Shown here: positions 15,109 to 35,188 of the stretch, piece after piece
Layout of the letters: each line of letters opens with the position of its first letter
Numbering within the stretch: the stretch's first letter is position 1
NCBI GenBank assembly: GCA_022508505.1
Contig: JAFLVC010000015.1
Coordinates: 1 to 44,549, forward strand
Length of the DNA: 44,549 nt
Source: Clostridiales bacterium
Lineage (GTDB): Bacteria; Bacillota; Clostridia; Christensenellales; Pumilibacteraceae
Reading direction: 5' to 3'
Translations under genes and position numbers: made by a program
Notes under the pieces: generated by a model
The model's input: the letters and a program-made list of their open reading frames with translations, nothing else
Databases searched by the model: none
What the model was told of the DNA's origin: nothing

Positions 15109-15208
15109 TCATTCTGAGCGAACGAAGAATCTAACGTGCGGCTCGTCTGGCGCAACGCAAAACGAATTACGGCAGTGCACACACGACAAAAATCCAAGCT
15201 GTGCTTGG
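15109..15208 (+). repeat. Composite intergenic repeat, copy 2
   Basis: It starts with CATTCTGAGCGAACGAAGAATCT (a short hairpin block), then CTCGTCTGG...AACGCAAAACGAATTACGGCAG, CACACACGAC and the hairpin CCAAGctgtgCTTGG. The same order of blocks is seen at 29657-29741. The block from 15142 on matches the repeat units at 35000-35188. Confidence 0.65.
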
Positions 15209-15211
15209 TTG

Positions 15212-15272: not shown

Positions 15273-15905
15273 ATGGAGCTCATAGAAGAACTGAAAAGAG
15301 CATATCCCGACGCTACGTGCGAGCTCGAATACAACACCGAGTTCGAGCTTTTGATAAGCGTTATCTTAAGCGCGCAGTGTACGGACAAGCGGGTAAATGC
15401 GGTTACGAAAGAAATGTTCAAGGTCGCGAACACGCCCGAACAGTTTTGCGAAATGCCTATTGAAGAGCTTGAAGAGCACATCAAATCGTGCGGATTATAT
15501 AAGAACAAAGCGGCAAACATAAAGTCGTGCTGTCGTGACCTCGTCGACAAGTTCGGCGGGCGAGTTCCCGACACGATGGAGCAGCTCATCACGCTCGCGG
15601 GCGTCGGGCGAAAGACCGCAAACGTCATGCTTTCGGTGGCGTTCGGAAAGCCGGCGATTGCCGTAGACACCCACGTTTTCCGCGTAGCGCACAGAATAGG
15701 GCTTTCAAGCGGCAAGACGCCCAACGACGTCGAGCGCGACCTCAACAAAGCGTTCCGCGAGGAGGACTACCGCGACGCGCATTTTCTTCTCATTCGGCAC
15801 GGCAGGGATTGCTGCCATGCGCGAAAGCCGGACTGCGAAATCTGTCCGATAAAAACTCTTTGCGCGACGGGAATAAACGACGCGGAAGTTGCGGCAAACA
15901 GGTAA
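15273..15905 (+). CDS. nth: Endonuclease III
   Basis: Nth is a DNA glycosylase/AP lyase for oxidised pyrimidines in base excision repair. The 210-residue protein has the helix-hairpin-helix GVGRKTANVMLS with its catalytic Lys (about residue 117), the catalytic Asp in AVDTHVFRVAHR, and the C-terminal [4Fe-4S] loop ending CCHARKPDCEICPIKTLC. Length and order are those of the family. The start follows the -10 box by 6 nt. It leads a long operon and ends 4 nt before the obg ATG. Confidence 0.95.
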   Translation: MELIEELKRAYPDATCELEYNTEFELLISVILSAQCTDKRVNAVTKEMFKVANTPEQFCEMPIEELEEHIKSCGLYKNKAANIKSCCRDLVDKFGGRVPDTMEQLITLAGVGRKTANVMLSVAFGKPAIAVDTHVFRVAHRIGLSSGKTPNDVERDLNKAFREEDYRDAHFLLIRHGRDCCHARKPDCEICPIKTLCATGINDAEVAANR

Positions 15906-15909
15906 AAAA

Positions 15910-17166
15910 ATGTTTATTGACAGAGCTAAAATCTATATAAAGGCGGGCAACGGCGGCGACGGCTGCACGTCGTTCTATACCGAAAAGTACGTCCCCAACG
16001 GCGGCCCCGACGGCGGCGACGGCGGCGACGGCGGGAGCGTCGTCATAAAGGCGTCGAGCGCGATTGCGTCGCTTTCCGATTACCGCTTCGGCAAGCACTA
16101 TAGGGCGGAGAACGGCGCAAACGGCTCGGGCAAGAACAGACACGGCAAGCGCGGCGAAGATTTGGTCTTAACGGTTCCGCGCGGTACAGTCGTCCGCGAC
16201 GAGGAGACAGGCAACATTTTAGCCGACCTATTTTACGACGGCGACAGCGTAACCGCGCTCGTCGGCGGAACCGGCGGCAAGGGCAACGCGCGGTTCAAGT
16301 CGTCGCGTCGACAGGCTCCCGGATTTTCGCAAAAGGGCGAGCCTACTAAGGAGCACGCAGTAATCCTCGAGCTCAAGACGATAGCCGACGTCGGGCTCGT
16401 CGGGTTTCCCAATGCGGGGAAGTCGACTCTGCTTTCGGTGCTCACGCGAGCAAACCCCAAGATTGCAAACTATCCGTTCACCACGCTTACGCCCAACCTC
16501 GGCGTGTGCGCGAGTGACGACTATTCTTTCACCATTGCGGACATTCCGGGGCTCATCGAGGGCGCAAGCGACGGCGCGGGACTCGGGCATACGTTTTTGC
16601 GCCACGTCGAGCGCACAAGGCTGTTCGTGCACGTAGTCGACGTTTCGGCGGCGGACGGCAGAAACCCGATAGACGACTACAACACGGTCAATACCGAGCT
16701 CACTAAGTACAACAAAGAGCTCGCCGACGTGCCGCAGATAATAGCGCTCAACAAGACGGACAGCGCGCCTAAAGAGAATATCGAGGCGTTCCGAAAAGCG
16801 GTAAAAGGCGATATAATAGAAATAAGCGCGGTAACGCACGGAAATCTCACGGCGCTTGTAAATGCGATAGCGCAAACGCTCAAAAAACTGCCGCCTGCGT
16901 CGCCTATGGAGTACGAGCCGTACAAATATCCCGACGCAGATCCTAATGCGTTCACGCTCACGCGCGGCGACGACGGCGCGTTTGTTTTGGGCGGCGAGCT
17001 TATAGAACGGCTTGCGCGAACGGTCGTTCTCGAAGATCGGGACAGCTTTATGTACTTCCAGCGTCGGCTCGACGACAGCGGCGTTACAAAAGCACTCAAG
17101 AAAGCGGGTATTGCCGACGGCGATACCGTCAGGATATTGGACACGGAGTTTAAATATGAAAGCTAA
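15910..17166 (+). CDS. obg: GTPase Obg (CgtA)
   Basis: Obg is a ribosome-associated GTPase for 50S assembly and stress control. The 418-residue protein has the Gly-rich Obg fold (1-158: GNGGDGCTSF, GPDGGDGGDGG), the G domain (G1 GFPNAGKST, G3 DIPGLIEGAS, G4 NKTD), and a C-terminal OCT domain (from about residue 340). I chose the ATG at 15910 because the conserved MFIDRAKIYIKAGNGG begins there; a TTG 21 nt upstream lies in nth. It overlaps the next gene by 11 bp. Confidence 0.96.
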   Translation: MFIDRAKIYIKAGNGGDGCTSFYTEKYVPNGGPDGGDGGDGGSVVIKASSAIASLSDYRFGKHYRAENGANGSGKNRHGKRGEDLVLTVPRGTVVRDEETGNILADLFYDGDSVTALVGGTGGKGNARFKSSRRQAPGFSQKGEPTKEHAVILELKTIADVGLVGFPNAGKSTLLSVLTRANPKIANYPFTTLTPNLGVCASDDYSFTIADIPGLIEGASDGAGLGHTFLRHVERTRLFVHVVDVSAADGRNPIDDYNTVNTELTKYNKELADVPQIIALNKTDSAPKENIEAFRKAVKGDIIEISAVTHGNLTALVNAIAQTLKKLPPASPMEYEPYKYPDADPNAFTLTRGDDGAFVLGGELIERLARTVVLEDRDSFMYFQRRLDDSGVTKALKKAGIADGDTVRILDTEFKYES

Positions 17167-18985
17167 AACTCAAAAGATAGCGATATACGGCGGGAGCTTC
17201 GATCCGCCGCACTACGGACATTACGACATAGTAAAAAACCTCGAGCGCTCTTTCGACCGCGTGATTGTCGTTCCGTCGTACATTTCTCCGTTCAAGACGG
17301 ACGAGGCGGCGGACAGCGCTAAAATCCGTCTAAAGCTTTGCAAAAAGGTGTTTGCTTCGAATAAGACCGAGGTGCTTTCGCGCGAGATAAGCAAAAAGGG
17401 CGTCAGCTATTCGATAGATACGGTAAAGTATCTCAAAAAGAAAAACCCCGATGCGAAGCTGTTTTTCGTGATAGGCAGCGAGGAGCTCGTCAAGCTTACC
17501 GAGTGGCATGAAATCGACGAACTCAAAAAGCTCGTCGCATTCTTTGTCGTGCCGCGCCCCGGCTATAAAGCGACCGACGAGACGCTCAAAACTCTCAAAA
17601 AGCGGGGGATAAAGATTAAGACCGCAAAGTTCGACGGACTTAACATAAGCTCGACGAAAATCAAGATAGACATTGCGTTCGGAAAGCAAAACACGAGCGT
17701 TCCCGACATTGTAATCAAAACGGCGGAAAAGGAAGGGCTCTTCAATCCGTACGGAAAGTACGTCGAAGCTCTTTACAGGTACAACCTGTCCGACAAGCGT
17801 TTGACGCACACGTACGGCGTCGCTATTCGCGGCGCGGAGCTCGCCAAGCTATACGGCTACTCGGTGCGCGACGCGGTTATTGCGTGCATATTGCACGACG
17901 TAGCAAAGTCGGTAGACCCGGATGATTACGTCGGCAAGGTCGACGCGGAGGGCTTTCCCGCGCCGACGGTGCACGGTCCGATAGGCGCGTATATAGCGCG
18001 GCGCGAGTTCGGAATTTCGGACGAGATGTATCACGCGATACGCCACCATTCGACGGGCGACGCGACAATGACGCTCCTCGACGAGATAGTTTACCTCGCG
18101 GACAAAACAGAGCCGTACAGGACGTACAACGAGGTGTACTATTTCCGCTATCTGTGCGCGATCGACAAGGACTACGCGATGTACAGGGCTCTATCTGCCG
18201 TCAGCGAGTACAAAGAGACGCGGCCGTGCGAATACACGGCAGCGGCTATCGAGCTTTACAGGGCGCGTTGCGAGGGCAAAACACCGCCCGAAATGCCGAA
18301 ACGCGAGGTCAAGCCTTCCGAAAATACGGTTACGCTTCCGATAGTGCGCGGCAGTCACGCTCTCGGCGAGCTCAAGACCAAGGCGATGCGCATTGTTCCC
18401 GAAACGCAAAAGGGCATACGCACGGTGGAAGAAACCGGCACCGCCGTCCGCGCCGTGGAGGAAAACAGTACGGCAGTCCGCATGATTGAAGAGAGCAGTA
18501 CTGCGGTACGCGTCGTAACCGAAAACAGCGGCGCGGTGCGCGTGGTGGAAGAAAGCAGCACGGCGGTCCGCACTGTGGAGGAAAAGAATACTGCAATCCG
18601 CGCCGTTCCCGAAAAGAAAAAGAAGGGCACGGCGACAAAAATCGACGAAATCAAAGAGATTGCCGTGACGGTAGCTAAAGAGCTCAGCCTTCACAAGGCG
18701 CGCGACATAGACATAGTTGACCTTGCGGGCAAGACGATAGTTGCAGACTATTTCGTAATCGCGTCGGTGTCGTCGACGACGGCTGTCAAGGCTCAGATGG
18801 GCTACGTTGAGGACATAATGACCAAAAAGTATGGGCTGGACCCGCTTCGCCGCGACGTGGACAGCGAATGGATAGCTCTCGACTACGGCGGAGTAATAGT
18901 TCACATATTCACCGACAAGACGCGTGAGTTTTACAATATCGAAAGATTGTGGTCGGACGGAAACAACATAACGAGGATAGAATAA
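17156..18985 (+). CDS. nadD-yqeK-rsfS: NadD-YqeK-RsfS fusion protein with decapeptide-repeat linker
   Basis: One uninterrupted 609-codon frame holds three proteins normally made separately. Residues 1-200 are nicotinate-nucleotide adenylyltransferase (GGSFDPPHYGHYD, then ISSTKIK), for NAD synthesis. Residues about 205-390 are the YqeK HD hydrolase of Ap4A (H218, HD at 247-248, then HGPIGA). Residues 412-491 are eight tandem decapeptides of the form R-x-V-E-E-x-S-T-A-V. Residues 496-609 are ribosomal silencing factor RsfS (HKARDIDIVDLAGKTIVADYFVI, and RDVDSEWIALDYGGVIVHIF), which blocks subunit joining. Start: ATG at 17156 with GGAG 7 nt upstream, overlapping obg. In related Clostridia these are separate neighbouring genes in this order, so the fusion preserves gene order. 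Confidence 0.93.
   Translation: MKAKTQKIAIYGGSFDPPHYGHYDIVKNLERSFDRVIVVPSYISPFKTDEAADSAKIRLKLCKKVFASNKTEVLSREISKKGVSYSIDTVKYLKKKNPDAKLFFVIGSEELVKLTEWHEIDELKKLVAFFVVPRPGYKATDETLKTLKKRGIKIKTAKFDGLNISSTKIKIDIAFGKQNTSVPDIVIKTAEKEGLFNPYGKYVEALYRYNLSDKRLTHTYGVAIRGAELAKLYGYSVRDAVIACILHDVAKSVDPDDYVGKVDAEGFPAPTVHGPIGAYIARREFGISDEMYHAIRHHSTGDATMTLLDEIVYLADKTEPYRTYNEVYYFRYLCAIDKDYAMYRALSAVSEYKETRPCEYTAAAIELYRARCEGKTPPEMPKREVKPSENTVTLPIVRGSHALGELKTKAMRIVPETQKGIRTVEETGTAVRAVEENSTAVRMIEESSTAVRVVTENSGAVRVVEESSTAVRTVEEKNTAIRAVPEKKKKGTATKIDEIKEIAVTVAKELSLHKARDIDIVDLAGKTIVADYFVIASVSSTTAVKAQMGYVEDIMTKKYGLDPLRRDVDSEWIALDYGGVIVHIFTDKTREFYNIERLWSDGNNITRIE
18389..18628 (+). repeat. Eight 30-bp tandem repeats coding a decapeptide linker
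   Basis: Eight in-frame 30-bp units, each starting with CGC (Arg) and coding R-(ATVM)-(VI)-(EPT)-E-x4-(VIG). The inner six units are closest to R-x-V-E-E-x-S-T-A-V. First and last units have Pro at position 4 and Lys-rich ends. They join the YqeK and RsfS parts of the fusion. Confidence 0.9.
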
Positions 18986-18988
18986 CGC

Positions 18989-19870
18989 ATGGGCTTTGAA
19001 GTAGACATAATACGCGCACTTCAAATGATGTCCAACGGCTTTTTGGACGCAATTAACCATATATTCTCATTTTTCGGTACCGAGATTTTCTTCATGATAG
19101 TCGCGTTGGTGCTCTATTGGTGCATCGACAAAAAGTTCGCGTACAGGTTTTTCAACGTCTATATTCTCGGCGTGGCGCTGACAAACGTCATGAAGATAAG
19201 CTTTAAACGCACACGCCCGTTCGATGCGTATCCGCACGAGGTGAGAAGCATAGGCGACCGCGAGACGAGCTATTCTTTCCCGTCCGGACACACAGAAACG
19301 ATAGCGTCCGTTTCGACGCTTGCCACAATCAAGTACGGAAAGAGTTATAAGATAATTCCCATAATCGGGGTAATGCTCACAGCCCTTGTCATGGTGTCGA
19401 GAATGTACCTCGGTCAGCACTACCTTTCGGACGTGTTGGTAGGACTTCTTGCGGGCATTCTGTTTGCGATATCGTTCAACTTTCTGCTCTCGCTGTTCAA
19501 GGACAAAGAAGAATGGTTTTTAGTCCCCGGCTTGGCGCTTGCGGTTATCATTATAGCAATTCTTGCGGGCGTCGGCGCACTCAACACAAGCGAGGACATG
19601 CTCAAAGGTCTCGGCGCGTTCATGGCGTTCGATATAGGCTACTTTGTCGAAAAGAAGTGGGTGGGCTACGACATTCATCAAAACACAAAGTGGTGGAACT
19701 ACGCGCTCCGCATTCTTATAGGCGGCGGCGTCACGGTGGGCATACAGTACGGGTTTAAGCCGATATTTCCGGAGAGTATTCCCATGCTGTACTGCTTTTT
19801 GAGATATTTTTTGATGGCGTTGTGGGCGGCGCTCGCGGCACCTCTAATCTTTAAGGCGGCTAAGATATAA
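18989..19870 (+). CDS. PAP2-family membrane phosphatase
   Basis: A 293-residue integral membrane protein with about seven hydrophobic segments. It carries the three PAP2 motifs: KISFKRTRP, PSGH (in SYSFPSGHTET) and SRMYLGQHYLSD, which provide the Lys/Arg and the two catalytic His of the active site. It probably dephosphorylates a lipid phosphate such as undecaprenyl diphosphate or phosphatidic acid at the outer face. It starts 3 nt after the fusion gene and its stop overlaps the tsaE ATG (TAATG). Confidence 0.9.
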   Translation: MGFEVDIIRALQMMSNGFLDAINHIFSFFGTEIFFMIVALVLYWCIDKKFAYRFFNVYILGVALTNVMKISFKRTRPFDAYPHEVRSIGDRETSYSFPSGHTETIASVSTLATIKYGKSYKIIPIIGVMLTALVMVSRMYLGQHYLSDVLVGLLAGILFAISFNFLLSLFKDKEEWFLVPGLALAVIIIAILAGVGALNTSEDMLKGLGAFMAFDIGYFVEKKWVGYDIHQNTKWWNYALRILIGGGVTVGIQYGFKPIFPESIPMLYCFLRYFLMALWAALAAPLIFKAAKI

Positions 19871-34999: not shown

Positions 35000-35188
35000 T
35001 CGTCGGGTGTAACGCAAACCGAATAACGGCAGTTCACACACGACAAATATCCAATCTGTGATTGGTCGGGTGAAATGCAAAATGCTTACTGCAGCCCACA
35101 CACGACAAATATCAATCTGTAATTGGTCGGGTGCAACCCTTATATCACCGTTGCAGTCTACACACGACAAATATACAACCTGTGGTTG
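35000..35188 (+). repeat. Three tandem ~62-bp intergenic repeat units at the gdhA 3' end
   Basis: Units start with TCGGGTG at 35003, 35066 and 35127 (lengths 63, 61 and 62). Each contains CACACGACAAATAT and an inverted pair such as CCAATctgtgATTGG; TCGGGTGT can pair with ACACACGA. The third unit ends at the base before the gdhA stop codon. Single copies occur at 13979, 15142 and 29694. Confidence 0.8.

Follow-up and report, generated by a model that had tools for sequence, protein, structure and literature searches.

The stretch analysed here is a contig of 44,549 nucleotides (nt) from a Clostridiales genome (hereafter the window, meaning this whole stretch, with positions counted from its first letter). 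At positions 17156-18985 of its forward strand lies a single reading frame of 609 residues whose only stop is the terminal one. The frame joins three proteins: NadD, an adenylyltransferase of nicotinamide adenine dinucleotide (NAD) synthesis; YqeK, a hydrolase of diadenosine tetraphosphate (Ap4A) and related dinucleotides; and the ribosome silencing factor RsfS (Table 1). An earlier note on this DNA had claimed that the three share one frame without a stop and that the parts look intact, and both claims are borne out by our analysis: the domains look intact in one chain, and each scores above its curated cut-off. The NCBIfam models TIGR00482 (NadD, 136 bits, cut-off 112.45, residues 10-195 on model positions 1-193 of 194), TIGR00488 (YqeK, 85.8 bits, cut-off 70.15) and TIGR00090 (RsfS, 83.6 bits, cut-off 56.9) all match, as do Pfam CTP_transf_like (residues 10-170, 72.1 bits, cut-off 21), HD (residues 215-319, 52.2 bits, cut-off 22) and RsfS PF02410 (residues 506-599, 85.4 bits, cut-off 21.6). 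Solved structures in the PDB exist among the relatives of each of the three domains.

Table 1. Features of the fusion locus, in window positions
Feature	Position	Strand	Evidence
obg, GTPase of large-subunit assembly	15889..17166	+	Pfam GTP1_OBG 195.1 bits, MMR_HSR1, DUF1967
NadD domain, nicotinate mononucleotide adenylyltransferase, residues 1-197	17156..17746	+	TIGR00482, GGSFDPPHYGH, PDB relatives such as 1kam
YqeK domain, HD-type Ap4A/dinucleotide hydrolase, residues 209-353	17780..18214	+	TIGR00488, alignment
YqeK-RsfS linker, about residues 380-495	18293..18640	+	length and sequence differ between relatives
Tandem repeat within linker, ~6 copies of a 10-residue unit, VRxVEExSTA type	18419..18606	+	Tandem Repeats Finder, codon table
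RsfS domain, ribosome silencing factor, residues 505-599	18668..18952	+	TIGR00090, PF02410, PDB chains of RsfS and MALSU1
PAP2-family phosphatase	18989..19870	+	Pfam PAP2 80.2 bits

Residue conservation was judged on an alignment of 25 proteins that carry all three domains in one frame (hereafter tri-fusions). The NadD residues G12, G13, S14, F15, P17, H22, S165 and S166 are invariant in all 25 rows and fall in what we take to be the GGSFDP..H.GH and SSTxIR-type motifs of this family. Equally invariant are H218, H247, D248, H273, H298 and D316 of YqeK, the metal ligands (H, HD, H, H, D) of its HD domain. In the RsfS part, W572, D576 and Y593 correspond, by a constant offset of 495, to W77, D81 and Y98 of Staphylococcus aureus RsfS, which contact the ribosomal protein uL14 (available part of PMC9503621), and all three are invariant in the alignment; the S. 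aureus substitution Y98A has been reported to lower anti-association activity by about 80%. The uL14 of the window's own genome retains the segments GTRIFGP and KIISLAPEVL, which by eye contain T97, R98 and K114, contact residues of the E. coli protein. The genome also encodes an HPF-type hibernation factor. A strong match to NAD synthetase was found in 19 of the 20 genomes of the window's genus (weak pieces only in G007), so that nicotinic acid adenine dinucleotide (NaAD), the NAD precursor, is expected to be used. The three modules look intact, and from what is known of their families each would be expected to be active.

The fusion is conserved throughout the genus. In the window's genome, which spans 1.89 Mb and 25 contigs, there is one match to the fusion protein and one to RsfS; each of the 20 genus genomes has a single RsfS match, and all 20, the window's included, carry the tri-fusion in one frame of 530-659 amino acids (aa) from stop to stop. 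This comparison excludes the assembly join that the earlier note had asked to have checked. Although draft assemblies were compared throughout, an artefact of assembly or gene calling is next to impossible, as one uninterrupted frame recurs in 20/20 genus genomes and in 39 distinct loci, and we rejected it. The fusion that the note described is thus real; it is no oddity of one genome, however, being found throughout one genus and in some members of two families. In the window's family (74 genomes, 72 with RsfS), 34 genomes from 7 of 18 genera have the tri-fusion, namely the 20 above and 14 from six other genera, all verified domain by domain. Another 37 family genomes have RsfS frames of 114-299 aa, part of which were verified by domain; members beyond the fetched loci were called unfused by RsfS frame length alone, and G088 (genus g2), whose contig starts just before RsfS, was left unjudged. 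Fused and unfused members occur within one genus twice (G023 versus G089, and G028 versus G068). In a sample of the order (297 genomes, 279 with RsfS), four tri-fusions from a second family, f20, were among the matches listed, and L076 from the genome collection falls in the same clade, giving five distinct f20 tri-fusions (L076, L082, L131, L132, L133). No further tri-fusion was found among the best 150 of 153 matches in a sample of the phylum (154 genomes, 153 with RsfS), the three genomes with the weakest RsfS (G000, G403, G481) lying outside the matches listed.

Several candidates with long open frames were rejected. G029 and G049 (open frames of 516 and 701) have stops between the parts. 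The four longest RsfS frames of the phylum sample also proved unfused on inspection: in G355, G398 and G435, which belong to one genus with 72% guanine plus cytosine, NadD and YqeK lie in other frames, as they do in G380. At the loci of this genus (L147, L148 and L149, from G435, G398 and G355) RsfS stands at the end of an open frame of 439-866 residues, which is either an open-frame run-on or a fusion to another gene.

The relatives show in what setting RsfS was acquired. A set of 128 distinct loci with the three domains comprises 39 that are tri-fused, 84 in which a NadD-YqeK fusion is accompanied by a separate RsfS (hereafter bi-fused) and 5 that keep all three apart. Likeness to the fusion was the basis on which these loci were selected, so the split gives no frequencies; L035, L056, L111, L127 and L128, each lacking a domain in the DNA examined, and 13 duplicate loci had been dropped from this set. 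In a less biased sample, NadD and YqeK share one frame in 16/16 matched family genomes outside the genus, and in other families of the order, judged by frame length, in 15 of 24 (7 separate, 2 unjudgeable). RsfS in the relatives is usually the gene directly after the fused NadD-YqeK. Given how widespread the NadD-YqeK fusion is around the window, RsfS appears to have joined later.

One of the closest described relatives is the bifunctional NadD-YqeK protein (NF005519/PRK07152), which shares two domains and their order: residues 6-358 of the fusion align to positions 1-346 of 361. This model stops after YqeK, whereas the window's protein continues with a linker and a complete RsfS, and the NF005519 score (237 bits) stays below the cut-off of 315 despite the matching order and architecture over residues 6-358. 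That NadD-YqeK fusions were known before, as the earlier note said, is correct: in JCVISYN3A_0380, such a protein of a minimal mycoplasma, YqeK is reported to proofread by removing wrong products of a permissive NadD (available part of PMC9426524). S. aureus YqeK hydrolyses Ap4A (work cited in the available part of PMC7549365). The RsfS part resembles free-standing RsfS/YbeB/Iojap (TIGR00090) in being a whole domain that has the W, D and Y contacts to uL14, whose contact segments the genome keeps; it differs in forming the C-terminus of a 609-residue enzyme and in having lost its own start in the window. The human RsfS homologue MALSU1 reaches the mitochondrial large subunit together with an acyl carrier protein and touches the Obg homologue GTPBP10 (available part of PMC10693566). 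This complex, MALSU1-L0R8F8-mtACP (mtACP being mitochondrial acyl carrier protein), resembles the fusion in that an RsfS homologue at uL14m is accompanied by a metabolic carrier protein on the maturing large subunit, but its partners are separate proteins and include no NAD enzyme. A further likeness is a ribosome hibernation factor joined to a possible adenine-nucleotide-binding module; its domains are unrelated, and HPF acts on the small subunit. In many Firmicutes nadD, yqeK and rsfS are clustered (available part of PMC7549365); neighbours and order are the same there and the fusion resembles a fused piece of that cluster, in which the three are named as separate genes. Among the papers listed by literature searches under several names there was none on a NadD-YqeK fusion that adds RsfS, in line with the earlier note, which knew of none, although absence from print is not proven by this; nadD was not found in the text of PMC3400551, and none of the NCBIfam models matching the fusion spans all three parts. 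Each domain, the NadD-YqeK pair and the gene cluster are already known; the three-part protein is the element that appears to be new.

The distribution of the tri-fusion over the trees is patchy. On the 128-row tree its label requires 10 changes, of which well-supported (starred) branches force 6, against a mean of ~34 for shuffled labels; on a 46-row family tree, which omits the near copies L017, L011, L005, L008, L033 and L020 and keeps few outgroup rows, 6 changes are needed and 4 forced, and a single change suffices in 0% of 200 bootstrap trees. The tri-fusion apparently arose more than once, and since a reversal would require a new RsfS start, repeated gain would be the simpler reading. 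Of 83 bi-fused loci, 49 have their best RsfS start no more than 30 nt from the YqeK stop, and in 25 the two overlap or touch, which makes fusion mutationally easy. A scan that began 25 residues ahead of the RsfS domain and ended at the domain's sixth residue found an ATG in 78/84 bi-fused versus 13/39 tri-fused loci; a start codon of any kind with a Shine-Dalgarno match no shorter than 5 nt was present in 65/84 versus 5/39. All five f20 tri-fusions have an ATG before RsfS, four of them with a Shine-Dalgarno match of at least 4 nt, and in the window the sole remaining start-like codon of RsfS is a GTG inside the domain without such a match. Family f20 thus seems to represent an early stage and the window's family a late one, mostly committed to the fusion; the f20 tri-fusions would be possible intermediates and may make both fused and free RsfS. 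With the rsfS start mostly decayed in the window's family, separate production of RsfS by the usual route would scarcely be possible there.

Between YqeK and RsfS the window's protein has a linker of ~115-121 residues, rich in charge (fractions of 0.17 for lysine plus arginine and 0.16 for aspartate plus glutamate), which matches no Pfam domain above cut-off and is probably disordered or flexible. Linkers are 35 to 121 residues long in the genus and 7 to 121 residues long across the 39 tri-fusions, and those of different genera neither align nor resemble one another. The tandem repeat in the window's linker has a unit of 30 base pairs (bp) in 6.1 copies, at about residues 422-484 (Tandem Repeats Finder rows 18419-18585 and 18425-18606); it went unmentioned in the earlier note. 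Compared in all pairs, seven 10-codon units (the seventh being decayed) show 57, 63 and 120 differences at codon positions 1, 2 and 3, the bias expected of a translated sequence. A genus-wide search with the linker matched the fusion gene alone, in 5/20 genomes (the window's and four relatives, where mostly the stretch preceding the repeat is covered), and a genome-wide repeat was rejected on that ground. The motif [ST]K[AESGQ][VMIL] (for example SKAVRLVPM), a pattern picked after the linkers had been inspected, occurs 18 times in 9/20 genus linkers versus 1.2 times in shuffled linkers, in 2/19 linkers of tri-fusions outside the genus, and once in the window, whose repeat may be an expansion of a unit of this type.

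Purifying selection acts on all three domains, and the RsfS part is the most constrained. Ratios of nonsynonymous to synonymous substitution rates (dN/dS) were calculated by domain for nine pairs of relatives, with dS near saturation in several. RsfS gave 0-0.053, lower than NadD and YqeK in 8/8 computable pairs; in the ninth (the window versus L003) its dS was beyond correction, and its dN was again the lowest. NadD ranged over 0.043-0.199 and YqeK over 0.016-0.137 across the nine pairs, and the linker over 0.12-0.41 in the 7 of 9 that could be computed.

Directly upstream of the fusion lies obg. In the window the fusion starts with an ATG at 17156, which has GGAG upstream of it, and shares 11 nt with the end of obg, whose stop codon is at 17164-17166. 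At each of the 20 genus loci an Obg frame on the strand of the fusion reaches the start of the fusion's open frame or runs into it; 14 of them pass the distance rule, and the other 6 overlap the fusion's stop-to-stop frame by 67-160 nt. Obg and the fusion would therefore probably be made together in the genus. RsfS and the Obg protein ObgE touch on the 50S subunit and have been proposed to cooperate in its maturation (available part of PMC10693566). Given this gene context, 50S maturation is at least as likely a role for the fusion as silencing in starvation. The suggestion in the earlier note that the fusion ties alarmone removal to ribosome shutdown did not find support; the overlap with obg fits a role of RsfS in 50S maturation at least as well.

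The explanation that we consider probable, with some reserve, is an operon-derived fusion of three modules whose RsfS end would dock on the large subunit and so tether NadD-YqeK there, near Obg. The NadD module would produce NaAD and the YqeK module would hydrolyse Ap4A, mis-made dinucleotides or both, while the RsfS module would dock on uL14 and prevent premature joining of the small subunit; the long, weakly conserved and probably flexible linker would let RsfS bind the subunit with NadD-YqeK held alongside. The adjacency of nadD-yqeK and rsfS would have given rise to the tri-fusion by loss of the stop or frame boundary between them, probably several times, after which the rsfS start would mostly have decayed in the window's family. 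Docking on uL14, cooperation with Obg and repeated gain rather than repeated loss are suggested here from knowledge of the families.

Several observations weigh against this explanation. Outside the genus, Obg was found in the flanking DNA examined at 10 of the 14 other family tri-fusions, at one of them 409 nt away, and at 0/5 f20 tri-fusions, where 1.6 to 4 kb upstream were covered, and such patchy proximity excludes partnership with Obg as the general cause of the fusion. The S. aureus contact E70 has no plain counterpart: R565 stands at the constant offset, and D567, invariant in the 25-row alignment, sits beside the E of a PDB relative in an alignment read by eye. The SSTxIR-type motif of NadD reads SSTKIK in the window, its last position varying among relatives. 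Weak start-like sites of RsfS are partly retained in the window's family: an ATG is present in 8/34 tri-fusions (one with a 4-nt Shine-Dalgarno match) and a GTG plus a 5-nt match in four, and L021, L033 and L034 (genus g2) carry, at the start of the RsfS domain, a GTG or TTG whose match is 4 nt long. The trees alone do not separate gain from loss, and the loose constraint on the linker would weaken the case for any specific task of the tether.

A neutral ratchet, in which loss of a stop fused two neighbours without functional consequence, the modules went on working as they would on their own, and the lost RsfS start was then hard to regain, is possible although rather unlikely. It would be consistent with the short distance from YqeK stop to RsfS start in bi-fused relatives, with the start signals kept in f20 as at an early stage, and with linkers that are dissimilar between genera and weakly constrained. 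Recurrence over 7 family genera and f20, presence in 20/20 genus genomes and linkers of up to 121 residues exceed what a ratchet needs, yet are compatible with it; the fusion would also force RsfS and NadD to be made in matching dose, which should matter if abundant RsfS is needed. Regulatory coupling, by which NadD-YqeK would sense Ap4A, NAD precursor or nucleotide state and gate RsfS, and with it shutdown or 50S maturation, appears unlikely. A mycoplasma NadD has been reported as a phosphodiesterase that binds cyclic di-AMP (available part of PMC12879401), which would favour such sensing, but a weakly conserved linker that varies from 7 to 121 residues is unlike an allosteric joint. We give still less credence to cleavage of the linker after translation, with RsfS working alone and the fusion as merely an expression device: the linker is charge-rich and probably disordered, which would speak for it, but no conserved site is visible and linkers of different genera cannot be aligned.

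The tethering explanation could be extended further, to RsfS as a built-in arm that brings NAD synthesis and dinucleotide clean-up to the maturing 50S subunit beside Obg, where local adenine-dinucleotide chemistry would gate maturation or release, a covalent metabolic checkpoint present in several lineages and equipped in the genus with a repeat-built tether. We offer this extension as speculation and doubt that it holds; if it did, the [ST]K[AESGQ][VMIL] motif of the linkers would share the job of the tether.

To our knowledge there is no agreed reason for the clustering of nadD, yqeK and rsfS. The tri-fusion would be a 'Rosetta stone' hint that the three share a place of work or need a matched dose, and it makes testable whether RsfS brings the NAD and Ap4A enzymes to the 50S subunit. 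It also bears on the role of RsfS itself, as a bulk silencer would need many copies, while an assembly factor could act at a low copy number like that expected of NadD.

The PAP2 phosphatase gene begins 3 nt past the stop of the fusion and is perhaps on the same transcript, though no part of the fusion protein; a TsaE gene, a TsaD-family gene and a GNAT acetyltransferase gene follow it in that order. Elsewhere in the window, positions 448-1413 hold tRNA genes, five on the reverse and one on the forward strand. A tandem repeat with a 62-bp unit lies outside the main genes at 35035-35183, with a short extra copy at 15178-15209. DNA like this repeat occurs at 31 places in the window's genome, 56 in G017 and 12 in G016, at 1-2 places in three other genomes of the genus and at none in the remaining 14. 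Its scatter suggests a dispersed element, unevenly expanded, which may resemble repetitive extragenic palindromes or bacterial interspersed mosaic elements (REP/BIME).

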